A stretch of DNA of 64,000 bases from Phocaeicola plebeius. GTDB lineage: Bacteria > Bacteroidota > Bacteroidia > Bacteroidales > Bacteroidaceae. Positions 39,449 through 44,132 of this stretch are shown piece after piece. The position numbers and the translations under genes were made by a program. Position 1 is the stretch's first letter. Every line of letters starts with the position of its first letter. The stretch lies in the NCBI GenBank assembly GCA_022767125.1, contig JALEPZ010000059.1, forward strand, positions 1-64,000, given 5' to 3'. The notes below the pieces were generated by a model. It did no database searches, was not told where the DNA came from, and saw only the letters and a program-made list of their open reading frames with translations.

Positions 39449-39757
39449 GAGCAGCTGATTACCTCCTTGTCCGTCGGCAACAAACTGAACCTGATGGTGT
39501 GGGACGGTACATTCCTGTATGTCCACAGCAACTATGCCCATACCCTTCACTACAGCCGGTTGGCATCGGGCGGTCTGCTGTTCTCCACGCATCCGCTCCG
39601 TTGCCTGCCGGCCGAGGACTGGCAACCATTGCCTTTTTTGAGGCTGATGGTGTACCAGGGCGGCGAAACGGTCTACACGGGTGCCCCGCTGAGCCAGGAA
39701 TACTTCGATCCGGAAGAAAACTATGAGTACAAGGAACTGGACTATACCAACCTGTAG
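39449..39757 (+). pseudogene. C-terminal remnant of a class II glutamine amidotransferase
   Basis: About 103 codons with no proper start encode LNLMVWDGTFLYVHSNYAHTL, THPL, WQPLPFLRLMVYQGGETVYTG and a final LDYTNL, the C-terminal part of the Gn-AT_II/YafJ-like class II amidotransferase family (usually about 260-280 residues). The catalytic N-terminal cysteine (MC...) and two thirds of the domain are missing, and a TAG stands at 39446. The remnant cannot have amidotransferase activity. Confidence 0.7.
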
Positions 39758-39766
39758 GGCGGCAGG

Positions 39767-40417
39767 CTAAATGTAGTATTCCGCCATCTCAATCAGTCCG
39801 GCCCGCAAAGCATATTTGGTGGCCTCGTACACATTGTTCACTTCCAGTTTGCGGAAAATGTTCTTCTTGTGAGTAATCACAGTATGAATGCTGGATATAC
39901 GTTCTGCTGCAATCTCCTTCACGGACTTGCCCCGAGCAATCTGCCGGAGGATTTCCTTCTCGGTCGCTGTCAGCACGGACGGTGCTTTCGAGTCACTGGA
40001 GTGACTGATGAGCAGATTGGTAATCTGATGACAGAGGAACCGCTCCCGGTGTGCCGCACACAGCAAGGCCGACCGGATTTCCTCGCCGGTATTCTCCTTC
40101 AAGATCATGCTGACTTTCTCTTCTGCACTCAGCTTTCGGATAAAATCCTCGCTCAGGTCGTTCGAGAACAGTAGCCAGCAGGCATCGGTGAACCGCCGTA
40201 CCAGAATCAGGAACTCCTCGACCCCGTTCAAGTCGAACAAGGTATAGTCGAGAACCACCACACTGTCCGGATAGTCCGTCAAGAGGTCAGTCAGTTGCTT
40301 TTTACCGGATGCCTCTGTGATGAGATTCGTCCCGAAAAGGTGTGCAATGAAGCCCCGCATTCCCATACGGGTAATATCCTGATTATCGGCCAAGACAAAC
40401 GAAAGTTGCTTATTCAT
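39767..40417 (-). CDS. NarL/FixJ-type response regulator (LuxR HTH)
   Basis: A 216-residue transcription factor. The receiver domain (1-125) has the acidic pocket ADNQD and a probable phosphoacceptor D57 in VVLDYTLFDLNG, and a lysine in MILKEN. The C-terminal LuxR HTH (about 150-208) reads LTATEKEILRQIARGKSVKEIA ... STVITHKK-like. No cognate kinase is adjacent. It is 19 bases downstream of the tusA-like gene on the same strand and may have belonged to the same sulfur-related operon. Confidence 0.88.
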   Translation of the reverse strand: MNKQLSFVLADNQDITRMGMRGFIAHLFGTNLITEASGKKQLTDLLTDYPDSVVVLDYTLFDLNGVEEFLILVRRFTDACWLLFSNDLSEDFIRKLSAEEKVSMILKENTGEEIRSALLCAAHRERFLCHQITNLLISHSSDSKAPSVLTATEKEILRQIARGKSVKEIAAERISSIHTVITHKKNIFRKLEVNNVYEATKYALRAGLIEMAEYYI

Positions 40418-40436
40418 AGTTAGTTCCTCCTATCCG

Positions 40437-40676
40437 TTAGCGATGAAAAGATATGGGTTTTTCAATGACGATTCGAAAGACGGTGTCCTCCACCTGTTCC
40501 GTCGAGCACACCGTGTACCCTTGTTCCTCCACGCTGCCGGGAATGTTGTTCAAGGGTTCACCTTGGCAGAGCAGCAGTTCAAGCGTATCGCCTGCTGCCA
40601 TCTGTGCCAGTTTCAGTTTGGTCCGGACCAAGGTCATCGGACAATGTTCATGCGTAATGTCAAGTGTATGTTTCAT
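40437..40676 (-). CDS. TusA/SirA-like sulfur carrier protein
   Basis: A 79-residue cytosolic protein with the TusA signature CPMTLVRTKLKL; the persulfide-bearing cysteine is C12. TusA-type proteins relay sulfur as a persulfide. The start is the ATG at 40676 (MKHTLDITHEHC), since upstream residues do not fit the family. It overlaps no gene but lies 17 bases after the broken DsrE gene, with which family members often cooperate. Confidence 0.85.
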   Translation of the reverse strand: MKHTLDITHEHCPMTLVRTKLKLAQMAAGDTLELLLCQGEPLNNIPGSVEEQGYTVCSTEQVEDTVFRIVIEKPISFHR

Positions 40677-40693
40677 CCGGTTGTCTCCTTCAA

Positions 40694-41232
40694 TCAAATG
40701 AATAATGTACGTCCTCCCTCAGAGATTTTCAGGAACGTGGCCACCCCCACTTCGTCCTTCACCTCCTCGATAAAATCAGTTTTTTGCAAGCCTAGCACAT
40801 GCATGGCCATCTCACAGGCATACATCCGTATGCCCAGCAATCTGGCAGCTTCTACCAGTTCCTCCAGCGTAGCCACATGGTTCTTGCGCATCAGGTAGCG
40901 GAAAAGTCGCGGGCCAAGGCCTCCGAAATGGAAACGGCTGCACGGTGTGGCTTTCAGCCCCCCATCATCCAGCCGAACAGCTTCGGCAACACGCCTGTTC
41001 CGACAAACGCGCGTCCCTGTTTCCGCTTGATGGCATCCAGCCCCCAAAACGTAAAGAAAAGATTCACTTCATACCCCAGCGAAGCCGCTCCGGTCGCCAA
41101 AGTGAACACAGCGGTCAGCCGATCGAAATCGCCACTGAAGGCAATGATGGAAAGTTTTTTCGGCCCCGCTGCCGCAGGGTGTTGAAACTGCGAAAGGTCA
41201 ATAGCATCCATATTCTTGTCTGTTGTATTCAT
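40694..41232 (-). pseudogene. DsrE/DsrF-family sulfur-relay protein, frameshifted at a G6 tract
   Basis: The first part (41232 to 40954) encodes KKLSIIAFSGDFDRLTAVFTLATGAASLGYEVNLFFTFWGL and stops after GWMMGG. The rest continues in another frame (LKATPCSRFHFGGLGPRLFRYLM ... GIRMYACEMAMHVLG). Both belong to one DsrE-like protein of about 180 residues. The break is at a run of six G (40958-40963); seven G would restore the frame. DsrE proteins pass persulfide sulfur between partners such as TusA. Either a real mutation, slippage-based phase variation, or a base-calling error. Confidence 0.8.
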
Positions 41233-41251
41233 AATAAGTCATGTAACGTAT

Positions 41252-41890
41252 TCATCCGTGCCGATTCAGGTCACAGGCCGTCGGCTCACAGGCCATCGCC
41301 AGCCCGGTAATGGAAGGGCACACACCACACAGCGGGCATCCCTCATGCCGCAGCACACTGATTTTCTGAAAGTCCATGGTCAGGGCATGGAAGGTCAGCA
41401 GGCAGTCCGTCAGCAGTTGCCCGGTTCCGGTCAGGTACTTCAGTACCTCCGCAGCCTGGATGGTTCCCAACATACCGGCAATGGCTCCCAGCACCCCCGC
41501 TTGCGAACAAGTAGGTACACTTCCTGCCGGCGGCGGTGCACCGAAAAGACAGCGGTAACAGGCGGTTCCCGGAAGATGGGTAAAGGACTGCTCTTCGTAC
41601 CGAAAGATACCCCCATGCGAAAAAGGTTTCCCACTCATGACGCAGGCATCGTTAATGAGGAACTTCACGGCAAAGTTGTCTGTCCCGTCCACCATGAAAT
41701 CAAAGAACGTGACCGTAGGGTTCATGACTCGGGAATAGTCGGGAGCATCCGTCCTACCGCAAAAGGCATCCGACATGCTGACCGCATCCTCGAACTCGTA
41801 GGCTGCCGTATGATAGACCGGCATACTGAGTGCATTATACGCATCCCGGTGCTGGAACCGGGTATGAATCGCTTGCGTCTGTTTTTTCAT
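41252..41890 (-). CDS. Chimeric ORF: MetY-type PLP enzyme N-terminus fused to ThiF/MoeB C-terminus
   Basis: Residues 1-63 (TQAIHTRFQHRDAYNALSMP ... DYSRVMNPTVTFF) are the start of a Cys/Met-metabolism PLP enzyme such as O-acetylhomoserine sulfhydrylase. From about residue 64 the protein is the second half of a ThiF/MoeB/HesA E1-like enzyme: VDGTDNF, HGGIFRYEEQ, CYRC and CPLCG zinc cysteines, PTCSQAGVLGA. The PLP lysine and the ThiF ATP-binding half are both absent, so neither activity is expected. A promoter and a strong purine-rich site (AAAGGAGAG) precede it, so it may still be expressed. The neighbours DsrE and TusA suggest a former sulfur-transfer operon. Confidence 0.85.
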   Translation of the reverse strand: MKKQTQAIHTRFQHRDAYNALSMPVYHTAAYEFEDAVSMSDAFCGRTDAPDYSRVMNPTVTFFDFMVDGTDNFAVKFLINDACVMSGKPFSHGGIFRYEEQSFTHLPGTACYRCLFGAPPPAGSVPTCSQAGVLGAIAGMLGTIQAAEVLKYLTGTGQLLTDCLLTFHALTMDFQKISVLRHEGCPLCGVCPSITGLAMACEPTACDLNRHG

Positions 41891-41930
41891 TTTTCTCTCC
41901 TTTTATCTAACTATTGGTAGGTATTGGGAA

Positions 41931-41938
41931 CAAAAGTA
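41931..41938 (-). promoter_or_regulatory. -7 box for the chimeric sulfur operon
   Basis: TACTTTTG on the minus strand fits TAnnTTTG, about 40 bases before the ATG at 41890. It shows that the operon head, including the metY-like start, has been kept. Confidence 0.5.
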
Positions 41939-41980
41939 ACGATAAAAAGCAGAATAAAGGCTACGAAAGGACAAGAAGAT

Positions 41981-42022
41981 GGCCGGAACAGAAGCATTTT
42001 GGAAGATTATTCTGTTCCGGCC
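41981..42022. terminator. Inverted repeat, 12-base perfect stem
   Basis: GGCCGGAACAGA and TCTGTTCCGGCC are exact complements around an 18-base loop. It lies between the fructokinase stop and the promoter of the chimeric gene on the same strand, so it probably helps end the fructan operon transcript. Confidence 0.55.
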
Positions 42023-42033
42023 GGCAGGATGAC

Positions 42034-42066
42034 GGGAAGCATAGAATATTATTCTACCGGCTTCCC
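42034..42066. terminator. Second hairpin downstream of fructokinase
   Basis: GGGAAGC-TAGAAT pairs with ATTCTA-GCTTCCC with a 3-base loop. It is 16 bases from the kinase stop. Together with the adjacent repeat it gives two tandem hairpins; neither has a strong T run. Confidence 0.55.
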
Positions 42067-42081
42067 TATCCTAAGAAAGAA

Positions 42082-42975
42082 TCAGATGCCTTTCAGTTCT
42101 TCGGGCAGCAACGGCATGGCTCCCTGCTGCGTGCAGACGTAGGCACTGACGTTCACCGCTATGCGGTGTGCTTCGGCCACTGGCTTGCCGGCCAGCAGGG
42201 AGGAAACGAACGAACCGGTGAACGAGTCGCCGGCCCCCACCGTATCGGCTACCTTCACTTTCGGTGTCTCGTAATAGCTCATCGCTCCTTTCGAGAAGAC
42301 ATAGCTGCCGTTCACGCCGCAGGTGAGCACCAGCATATCCAGGTTATATTTCCCCAGAATCAGCCAGCACTTGTTCTCGAAGTCCATGCCCGGATAGCCG
42401 AACATGCGGCCGATGATGACCAGCTCCTCATCGTTAATCTTGAGGATGTTGCAGCGGCGCAGCGACTCGCGGATGATTTCCTTGCTGTAGAAGTTCTGGC
42501 GCAGGTTGATGTCGAAGATGCGCAGGCAGTCCTTCGGGGTGCTGTCGAGGAAGCGGTAGATGGTCTGGCGTGACACCTCGCTGCGTTGGGCCAGTGAGCC
42601 GAAGCACACGGCGCGGGAGCGGCGGGCGAGGGCTTCCAGTTCGGGGGTGAAGGGAATGTTGTCCCAGGCGGCCCCTTCCTTGATGTCATAGCTCGGGATG
42701 CCGTCGCCGTCCAGTGTCACCTGCACGGTGCCTGTGGGGAAGTCCACCCGGGGCAGGGCGTAGTTCAGTTTCTTCTCTTCGAAAGCCTGGATGGTCTCGT
42801 CACCCAGCTCGTCATTGCCGACAGCACTGACGGCGTATGCCTCGTTGCCAAACTGGGACGTGTGATAGGCAAAGTTGGCGGGCGCGCCGCCCAGCTTCCG
42901 GCCTTCGGGGAGGCAATCCCAAAGTGCCTCGCCCAGTCCTACGATAATACGGTTGTTTTCCATGATGTGTGTCAT
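42082..42975 (-). CDS. Fructokinase, PfkB family
   Basis: A 297-residue cytosolic sugar kinase that phosphorylates imported fructose. The N-terminus has GLGEALWDCLPEGRKLGGAPANFAYH, the PfkB substrate motif of fructokinases, and the C-terminus the anion-hole motif DTVGAGDSFTGSF with the catalytic aspartate. Its ATG overlaps the MFS stop as ATGA, which supports the start at 42975 over the ATG at 42963. It is the last gene of the GH32-MFS-kinase operon, parallel to the Bacteroides thetaiotaomicron fructan locus. Confidence 0.93.
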   Translation of the reverse strand: MTHIMENNRIIVGLGEALWDCLPEGRKLGGAPANFAYHTSQFGNEAYAVSAVGNDELGDETIQAFEEKKLNYALPRVDFPTGTVQVTLDGDGIPSYDIKEGAAWDNIPFTPELEALARRSRAVCFGSLAQRSEVSRQTIYRFLDSTPKDCLRIFDINLRQNFYSKEIIRESLRRCNILKINDEELVIIGRMFGYPGMDFENKCWLILGKYNLDMLVLTCGVNGSYVFSKGAMSYYETPKVKVADTVGAGDSFTGSFVSSLLAGKPVAEAHRIAVNVSAYVCTQQGAMPLLPEELKGI

Positions 42976-44132
42976 TTCTTTATGTTAGGTAAATATGTAA
43001 ACAGGTAAATCACTCCGACGGCCATGACCGCCACGGCTCCCACCTGCCCGAAGGCATCGGCCGAGAAGCCCATCAGCAAGGGGAAGAGGGTACCCCCGAA
43101 GAGGCCCATAATCATCAGGCCGCTGATTTCGTTCTGATGGGAGGCATCCGAAAGCAGGGCCCGCGAGAAGACGAGCGAGAAGATGTTGGAGTTGCCGTAC
43201 CCCACTAAGGCAATGGCGGCATACAGGACCGTCTTGTCCGTACCGACCGCCAGTCCAGCCATCGCTGCCGCCATCATCACGGCACTAATGAGGAAGAACA
43301 GCCGGTTGCTCATGATCCGGAGGAAGAACGAGCCGGTCAGACAGCCGACGGTGCGGAAGATGAAATAGAGCGAGGTGGCGAAGGCTGCGTCATTGAGCGT
43401 CATGCCGAGCCGTTCCATCAGGAGCTTCGGGGCGGTGGTGTTGGTGCCTACGTCAATGCCCACATGGCACATGATGCCGATGAACGACAGCAGGATCAGC
43501 GGATGGGAAAGCAGGCGCACGCAGTCGGGCAGAGAGGAGGTCTTGCCTTCGCTCTTTTCCTCCTCGATGGGGGTGGACGAAAGCAACAGCGTAGCGAGCA
43601 CACCGATAATCAGGTAGATGGGGAAGAGCACGCGCCAGCCCATCCCGAATGTGGGGATGGTGGCCAAAGCACCCCAAGAGGCGATATAAGGCGCCATGAA
43701 CGAGGCGATGGCCTTGACGAACTGTCCGAAGGTCAGTGTGGAGGCCAGATTGCCTTTGATGACCAACGACACCAAGGGATTGAGTGAGGTCTGCATCAGG
43801 GCGTTACCGATGCCGAGCAACGAGAATGAGGCGAGCATCAGGGGGAAGGTTTCTCCAAAGATGGGTAGCAGGAGTGACACCATGGTCACTACAAGCGATA
43901 GCAGTACGGTCTTCTTACGGCCTATCTTGTTCATCAGCATCCCAGTGGGGACGGAGAATATGAGGAACCAGAAGAATACCAACGAGGGGAAAATGTTGGC
44001 GACGGAGTCACTCAGGTCGAGGTCTGCCTTCACATAGTTCGAGGCGATGCCCACCAGGTCCACAAATCCCATGGCGAAGAAGCAGAGCATCAATGGGAGG
44101 ACGGTCAGTTTGCTATTGTTGTTCATAATCAT
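42972..44132 (-). CDS. MFS sugar transporter, probable fructose importer
   Basis: A 386-residue inner-membrane protein with about 12 hydrophobic helices. It is of the FHS (fucose/glucose/galactose permease-like) branch: FFAMGFVDLVGIASNYVK in helix 1, GMLMNKIGRKKTV in the loop between helices 2 and 3, and GIGNALMQTSLNPLVS. The start overlaps the GH32 stop by one base (TGATG) and its stop overlaps the kinase start, so all three are translationally coupled. Context indicates fructose or short fructan import. Confidence 0.88.
   Translation of the reverse strand: MIMNNNSKLTVLPLMLCFFAMGFVDLVGIASNYVKADLDLSDSVANIFPSLVFFWFLIFSVPTGMLMNKIGRKKTVLLSLVVTMVSLLLPIFGETFPLMLASFSLLGIGNALMQTSLNPLVSLVIKGNLASTLTFGQFVKAIASFMAPYIASWGALATIPTFGMGWRVLFPIYLIIGVLATLLLSSTPIEEEKSEGKTSSLPDCVRLLSHPLILLSFIGIMCHVGIDVGTNTTAPKLLMERLGMTLNDAAFATSLYFIFRTVGCLTGSFFLRIMSNRLFFLISAVMMAAAMAGLAVGTDKTVLYAAIALVGYGNSNIFSLVFSRALLSDASHQNEISGLMIMGLFGGTLFPLLMGFSADAFGQVGAVAVMAVGVIYLFTYLPNIKK

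Follow-up and report, generated by a model that had tools for sequence, protein, structure and literature searches.

In the 64,000-nt stretch of Phocaeicola plebeius DNA analysed here (hereafter, the window), the start of a metY gene is joined in frame to the end of a thiF gene, forming a chimeric metY'-'thiF ORF of 212 codons on the minus strand (41252..41890) that opens with ATG and contains no internal stops. It is very likely that this hybrid is a pseudogene, generated by deletion in an operon that belongs to a known type and is now in decay, and not a new enzyme. The event is an ordinary one, but it offers a clear snapshot of a linked sulfur pathway falling apart, and matches to metY or thiF in such genomes need not signal a working pathway.

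The hybrid ORF and its two parents

Pfam assigned residues 4-64 of the predicted protein to the start of the Cys_Met_Meta_PP profile (PF01053; E = 2.2e-7) and residues 60-186 to positions 108-237 of the 238-position ThiF profile (E = 3.6e-29). A search of the PDB matched residues 4-65 to O-acetylhomoserine sulfhydrylase and Met gamma-lyase and residues 58-190 to MoeB/ThiF/Uba4, and NCBIfam divided the protein between the same two groups at the same point. All three agree with the first-pass annotation, which had read the ORF as an in-frame chimera of 63 sulfhydrylase-type residues and the C-terminal half of a ThiF/MoeB protein; the strand, which it left unstated, is minus. The metY 5' remnant (codons 1-63; 41702..41890, minus), which lacks the PLP-lysine region, is identical to the metY of Parabacteroides massiliensis at 57 of 63 residues (90%) and to that of the closest relative, a species of the same genus (genome G018), at 53 of 63. 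The thiF 3' remnant (41252..41701, minus), delimited by the Pfam and PDB matches and by alignment, begins at about codon 123 of 269 and is 75% identical to one intact relative. At these levels of identity, both matches are far above chance.

Upstream, TACTTTTG, a Bacteroides-type -7 element (TAnnTTTG), lies 48 nt before the ATG (41931..41938, minus), and the same motif precedes metY in G018 and at L143, L150, and L075. An AGGAG resembling a ribosome site stands 5' of the ATG (41897..41901, minus), so that promoter motif, start codon and ribosome site are all still present, as had been noted earlier. The 212-residue hybrid would now be driven by the metY promoter and start.

Junction and predicted deletion

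Comparison of codons with those of L143, G018, L074, L075, and others placed the change of parent between F63 and D64, at TTT|GAT (41699..41704, minus), in keeping with the earlier estimate of a join near 41700. The codons across the junction are ACG TTC TTT GAT TTC (41710 to 41696, minus strand), and the hybrid protein reads NPTVTFFDFMVDGTDNF there; relatives have T-F-F-E or T-Y-F-E at this point in metY and Y-D-F at ThiF codons 122-124. Since the inferred parental ends have at most 3 nt in common, the pattern is that expected from illegitimate recombination. On a layout like that of G018, the missing segment would be ~1,363 bp, an estimate given that the parental sequence itself is not known. 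A search of the rest of the genome found neither metY 64-307 nor thiF 1-121 of this clade.

We envisage an ancestral operon, metY-thiF-dsrE2-tusA-regulator, that formed part of a protein-thiocarboxylate homocysteine pathway and from which ~1.36 kb, from about codon 63 of metY to about codon 122 of thiF, would have been lost by illegitimate recombination. The first-pass annotation had proposed that one deletion removed the end of metY and the ATP-binding half of thiF, and the G018 layout supports this. Such a deletion, at a junction known from one assembly, would account for the fusion. Directly observed are the hybrid itself, the gene order common to relatives, the lesion in dsrE, the missing carrier and peptidase, and the separate thiF lesions in relatives, whereas the single deletion, the order of losses, and the lack of function are inferred.

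Predicted function and constraint

The hybrid has neither the full-length fold nor the PLP-binding lysine (Lys204 in G018 MetY) expected of a functional MetY. Its C-terminal half aligns to the E1-like adenylyltransferases (MoeB 119-248, ThiF 114-245); however, unlike MoeB, ThiF, and Uba4, it has lost the nucleotide-binding loop along with the rest of the N-terminal half, and GxGGLG, SNLQRQ, and the conserved Lys after it are all gone. Since the PLP lysine and the ATP-binding half of the E1-like enzyme are both missing, neither reaction should be possible. What the ThiF remnant does keep is the zinc site of the C-terminal domain (CxxC pairs CYRC and CPLC), the PTC cysteine and the VDGTDN aspartate.

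The remnant deviates at 7 of 83 columns that are invariant in the others, compared with 0-3 in each of 17 intact relatives; one of the seven sits at the junction and may derive from metY. For both halves, synonymous sites were saturated and dN/dS was therefore uninformative. The ORF is open over 212 codons and the zinc-binding cysteines are unchanged, which points either to a recent deletion or to some role retained by the ThiF half. The hybrid is truncated relative to intact orthologues in the same gene order, and it bears signs of relaxed constraint in the deviating columns and in the frameshift of the adjoining dsrE, which together are marks of a pseudogene. A functional product is unlikely, and the hybrid, although still readable, is almost certainly useless. 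Other Cys/Met PLP enzymes are present in the genome, so the loss of this metY would be tolerable.

Downstream genes

The first-pass annotation had placed dsrE and tusA after the fusion. Both are present, and tusA is intact (40437..40697, minus; PF01206, E = 1.5e-19), but dsrE2 (40694..41232, minus; PF13686) is frameshifted, which had been missed. It lies in two pieces (41232-40954 and 41047-40694), with positions 3-67 and 72-149 of the PF13686 profile in different frames; in G018, L063, L074, and L075, dsrE occupies a single frame. A six-G run (40958..40963, minus) is one base short in comparison with the dsrE of relatives. Since dsrE is also frameshifted, the decay is wider than the metY-thiF fusion. 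An intact LuxR/GerE-type response regulator follows (39767..40417, minus), and regulators of this type are linked to metY or sulfur genes in G018, L063, L071, L072, and L143. On the plus strand, a 96-aa ORF (39467-39757) has a sequence reminiscent of class II glutamine amidotransferases at their C-terminal end; it has no Pfam match and is possibly another gene remnant.

Gene order in relatives

The G018 locus (L026, on contig C4 of that genome) has the order seen in the window, i.e., metY (full, 397 codons), thiF, dsrE, tusA, and a LuxR-type regulator, and the start of its thiF overlaps the end of metY by 8 nt. The first-pass annotation had suggested looking for a relative with intact metY, ThiS-like, and thiF genes in the same order before dsrE/tusA; G018 answers to this in gene order and in its full metY, though its thiF is damaged. 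The proposed metY-(carrier)-thiF-dsrE-tusA operon thus held as to order; however, the carrier slot between metY and thiF is empty in G018. Carrier-containing sets were found at L063 (genome G284) and L076, both with metY-cysK-ThiS-ThiF-DsrE2-TusA-JAMM, which bears out the earlier appeal to the logic of Wolinella. In full, the L063 order is regulator, metY, cysteine synthase, ThiS-like carrier, ThiF, DsrE2, TusA, JAMM peptidase, and encapsulin. Gene sets like it occur at L076, L073 (apparently the same contig as G255), L077, L082, and L085, and the same families stand in other orders at L069, L070, L071, L072, and L081, some of which are cut by contig ends. Pfam domains in the relatives' loci include ThiS, Prok-JAB, ThiF, an SrpI-like encapsulin with cNMP-binding domain, aminotransferase class V, and PALP. 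From this gene content, the MetY of these relatives is predicted to use the carrier thiocarboxylate to make homocysteine.

The fusion itself was absent from 100 related genomes searched, in which the two halves match different places, and no second fusion occurred among the best 80 of 163 confirmed loci; a fusion conserved under purifying selection is what the first-pass annotation had named as the mark of a real protein. A wide match at L143 (residues 1-199) was rejected as a second fusion, as L143 encodes an ordinary full-length MetY.

Relative to the neighbouring pfkB, transporter, and GH32 genes, the operon is oriented oppositely in the window (39767-43000) and in G018 (L026:6105-10266), which suggests a local inversion or a separate insertion. 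We considered the operon as an invertible or excisable element and rejected this, since inverted repeats were short and imperfect, with none convincingly flanking it and no long ones.

Carrier loss and thiF damage

Neither a ThiS-like carrier with near-terminal GG nor a JAMM peptidase gave a match in the window genome at E<=0.1. No JAMM peptidase of this pathway was found in G018 either, and an encapsulin of the family-2 type was found in neither genome. Searches for the carrier in G018, G048, L074, and L075 returned only weak matches (E 0.003-0.06), that in G018 lying ~6 kb from another ThiF-family gene.

Lesions of thiF also occur in other genomes that lack a clear carrier. In G018 (L026:7291-7786), an out-of-frame internal deletion joins codon ~102 of thiF to codon 205, and the surrounding metY, dsrE, and tusA are intact. 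In a Mediterranea MAG (L075:7620-8456), thiF lacks its first ~64 residues and has instead a 29-residue start joined in frame, which resembles the N-terminus of biotin synthase and is identical to the BioB of the same locus at 13 of 28 residues. In Parabacteroides distasonis An897 (L074), thiF-dsrE-tusA is intact and no clear carrier or JAMM peptidase was found. In a count set up after the data had been seen, on small and related groups consisting mostly of MAGs, thiF was damaged in three of four carrier-less loci (the window genome, G018, and L075; L074 being intact), whereas it was intact in all 15 loci that contain the carrier (Fisher p = 0.004). These comparisons suggest that damage to thiF goes with loss of the carrier, as the E1-like enzyme would no longer be needed without it. 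On this reading, loss of the sulfur carrier would have come first and the operon in the window would have been decaying since; carrier and JAMM peptidase were not found, and dsrE is frameshifted.

Alternative explanations

The hybrid could conceivably be a new functional protein, made from the metY promoter, in which the C-terminal half of ThiF, still bearing its zinc site and a reactive cysteine, would partner TusA/DsrE, either relaying sulfur or serving as a dock. It is encoded by an open, in-frame ORF that retains the zinc-site cysteines, PTC cysteine, and VDGTDN aspartate; the promoter motif and AGGAG are kept as well, and in L075 the C-terminal part of thiF is likewise in frame behind a foreign start. 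However, the adjoining dsrE is frameshifted, 7 of 83 otherwise invariant ThiF sites are changed, neither the 100 genomes nor the best 80 of 163 loci held another such fusion, and the 3' end of thiF in G018 is out of frame, and we regard a functional hybrid as highly improbable. A broader version, in which the C-terminal half of a truncated ThiF survives time and again, using any available start (metY here, BioB-like in L075), as a nucleotide-free cysteine/zinc protein that would relay sulfur with TusA after carrier loss, has only a slender chance of being correct.

Artefact is a further concern, since the draft assembly is fragmented (125 contigs, 92.8% complete) and the apparent break in dsrE falls in a homopolymer; an assembly or binning error might have joined two real sequences or haplotypes from an organism with intact metY and thiF. 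Yet a 113-kb contig carries the junction in its interior, along with matching operon genes and flanking sugar genes common to G018; no intact metY or thiF N-terminal half of this clade occurs elsewhere in the genome; and assembly error could hardly account for every one of the separate lesions within genes of G018 and L075. This explanation is therefore very unlikely. There is scarcely any probability that a rearrangement, as opposed to a simple deletion, moved the metY tail to another contig of the same genome (C45:42005-42247), where a C-terminal metY fragment (residues ~309-390) does exist. That fragment is at best 65-73% identical to any metY compared, vs. 90% for the hybrid N-terminus and P. 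massiliensis metY, it begins at residue ~309 instead of 64, and thiF sequence is absent after it. We rejected it as the moved tail, since it is diverged and appears to be what is left of another metY copy. The C45 remnant (L167:8009-8254) is isolated in otherwise non-coding sequence, with a transposase-like ORF ~2 kb downstream.

Relation to known sulfur systems

The gene set of Wolinella succinogenes reportedly comprises metY, a ThiS-like carrier, ThiF, a JAMM peptidase, and TusA. Protein thiocarboxylate-dependent methionine synthesis in that bacterium is attributed to Krishnamoorthy and Begley (2011) in a passage of PMC5764234. A MetY-type enzyme, ThiS-like carrier, ThiF-like E1, JAMM/JAB peptidase, and TusA likewise occur in a single locus at L063, L076, L087, and L091, and the window keeps pieces of this set; however, it is without carrier or peptidase, and its MetY and E1 are truncated. 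The Bacteroidales version also differs in adding DsrE2, cysteine synthase, sometimes a regulator, and often an encapsulin and cysteine desulfurase. Row 4e of a published survey (PMC1779556) describes operons of ThiS/MoaD, E1, JAB, SirA, and O-acetylhomoserine sulfhydrylase in which the E1 has no rhodanese domain. The gene families there, including SirA/TusA and the sulfhydrylase, are the same as those considered here, whereas for row-4e operons the passages of the survey consulted make no mention of DsrE2, encapsulin, or cysteine desulfurase, and the copy in the window is degraded.

In a set of Bacteroidales loci (L063, L068-L073, L076, L077, L081, L082, L085, and L090), a ThiS-like carrier, ThiF, JAMM, TusA, DsrE2, and MetY and/or cysteine synthase have as neighbours a SufS-like cysteine desulfurase and a family-2 encapsulin of the cNMP-binding kind; contig edges cut off several of them, and not every member is visible in each. 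Encapsulins of family 2 that carry a cysteine desulfurase as cargo are described in PMC8049743 and PMC8346489, in whose main text searches found neither ThiF nor methionine. Our literature searches found no description of the thiocarboxylate set combined with encapsulin and desulfurase and no paper combining encapsulin, Prevotella, and sulfur metabolism. The window genome differs from these systems in having no encapsulin of that kind, and the intact, encapsulin-linked version in its relatives is of more interest than the fusion itself, as it represents an uncommon wiring in which a Wolinella-type methionine-sulfur pathway lies beside an encapsulin-linked cysteine desulfurase in Bacteroidales. 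As in the family 2 systems, the SrpI-like shell of the relatives, with its cNMP-binding domain (PF19307, PF00027), adjoins a SufS-like desulfurase that carries an N-terminal extension.
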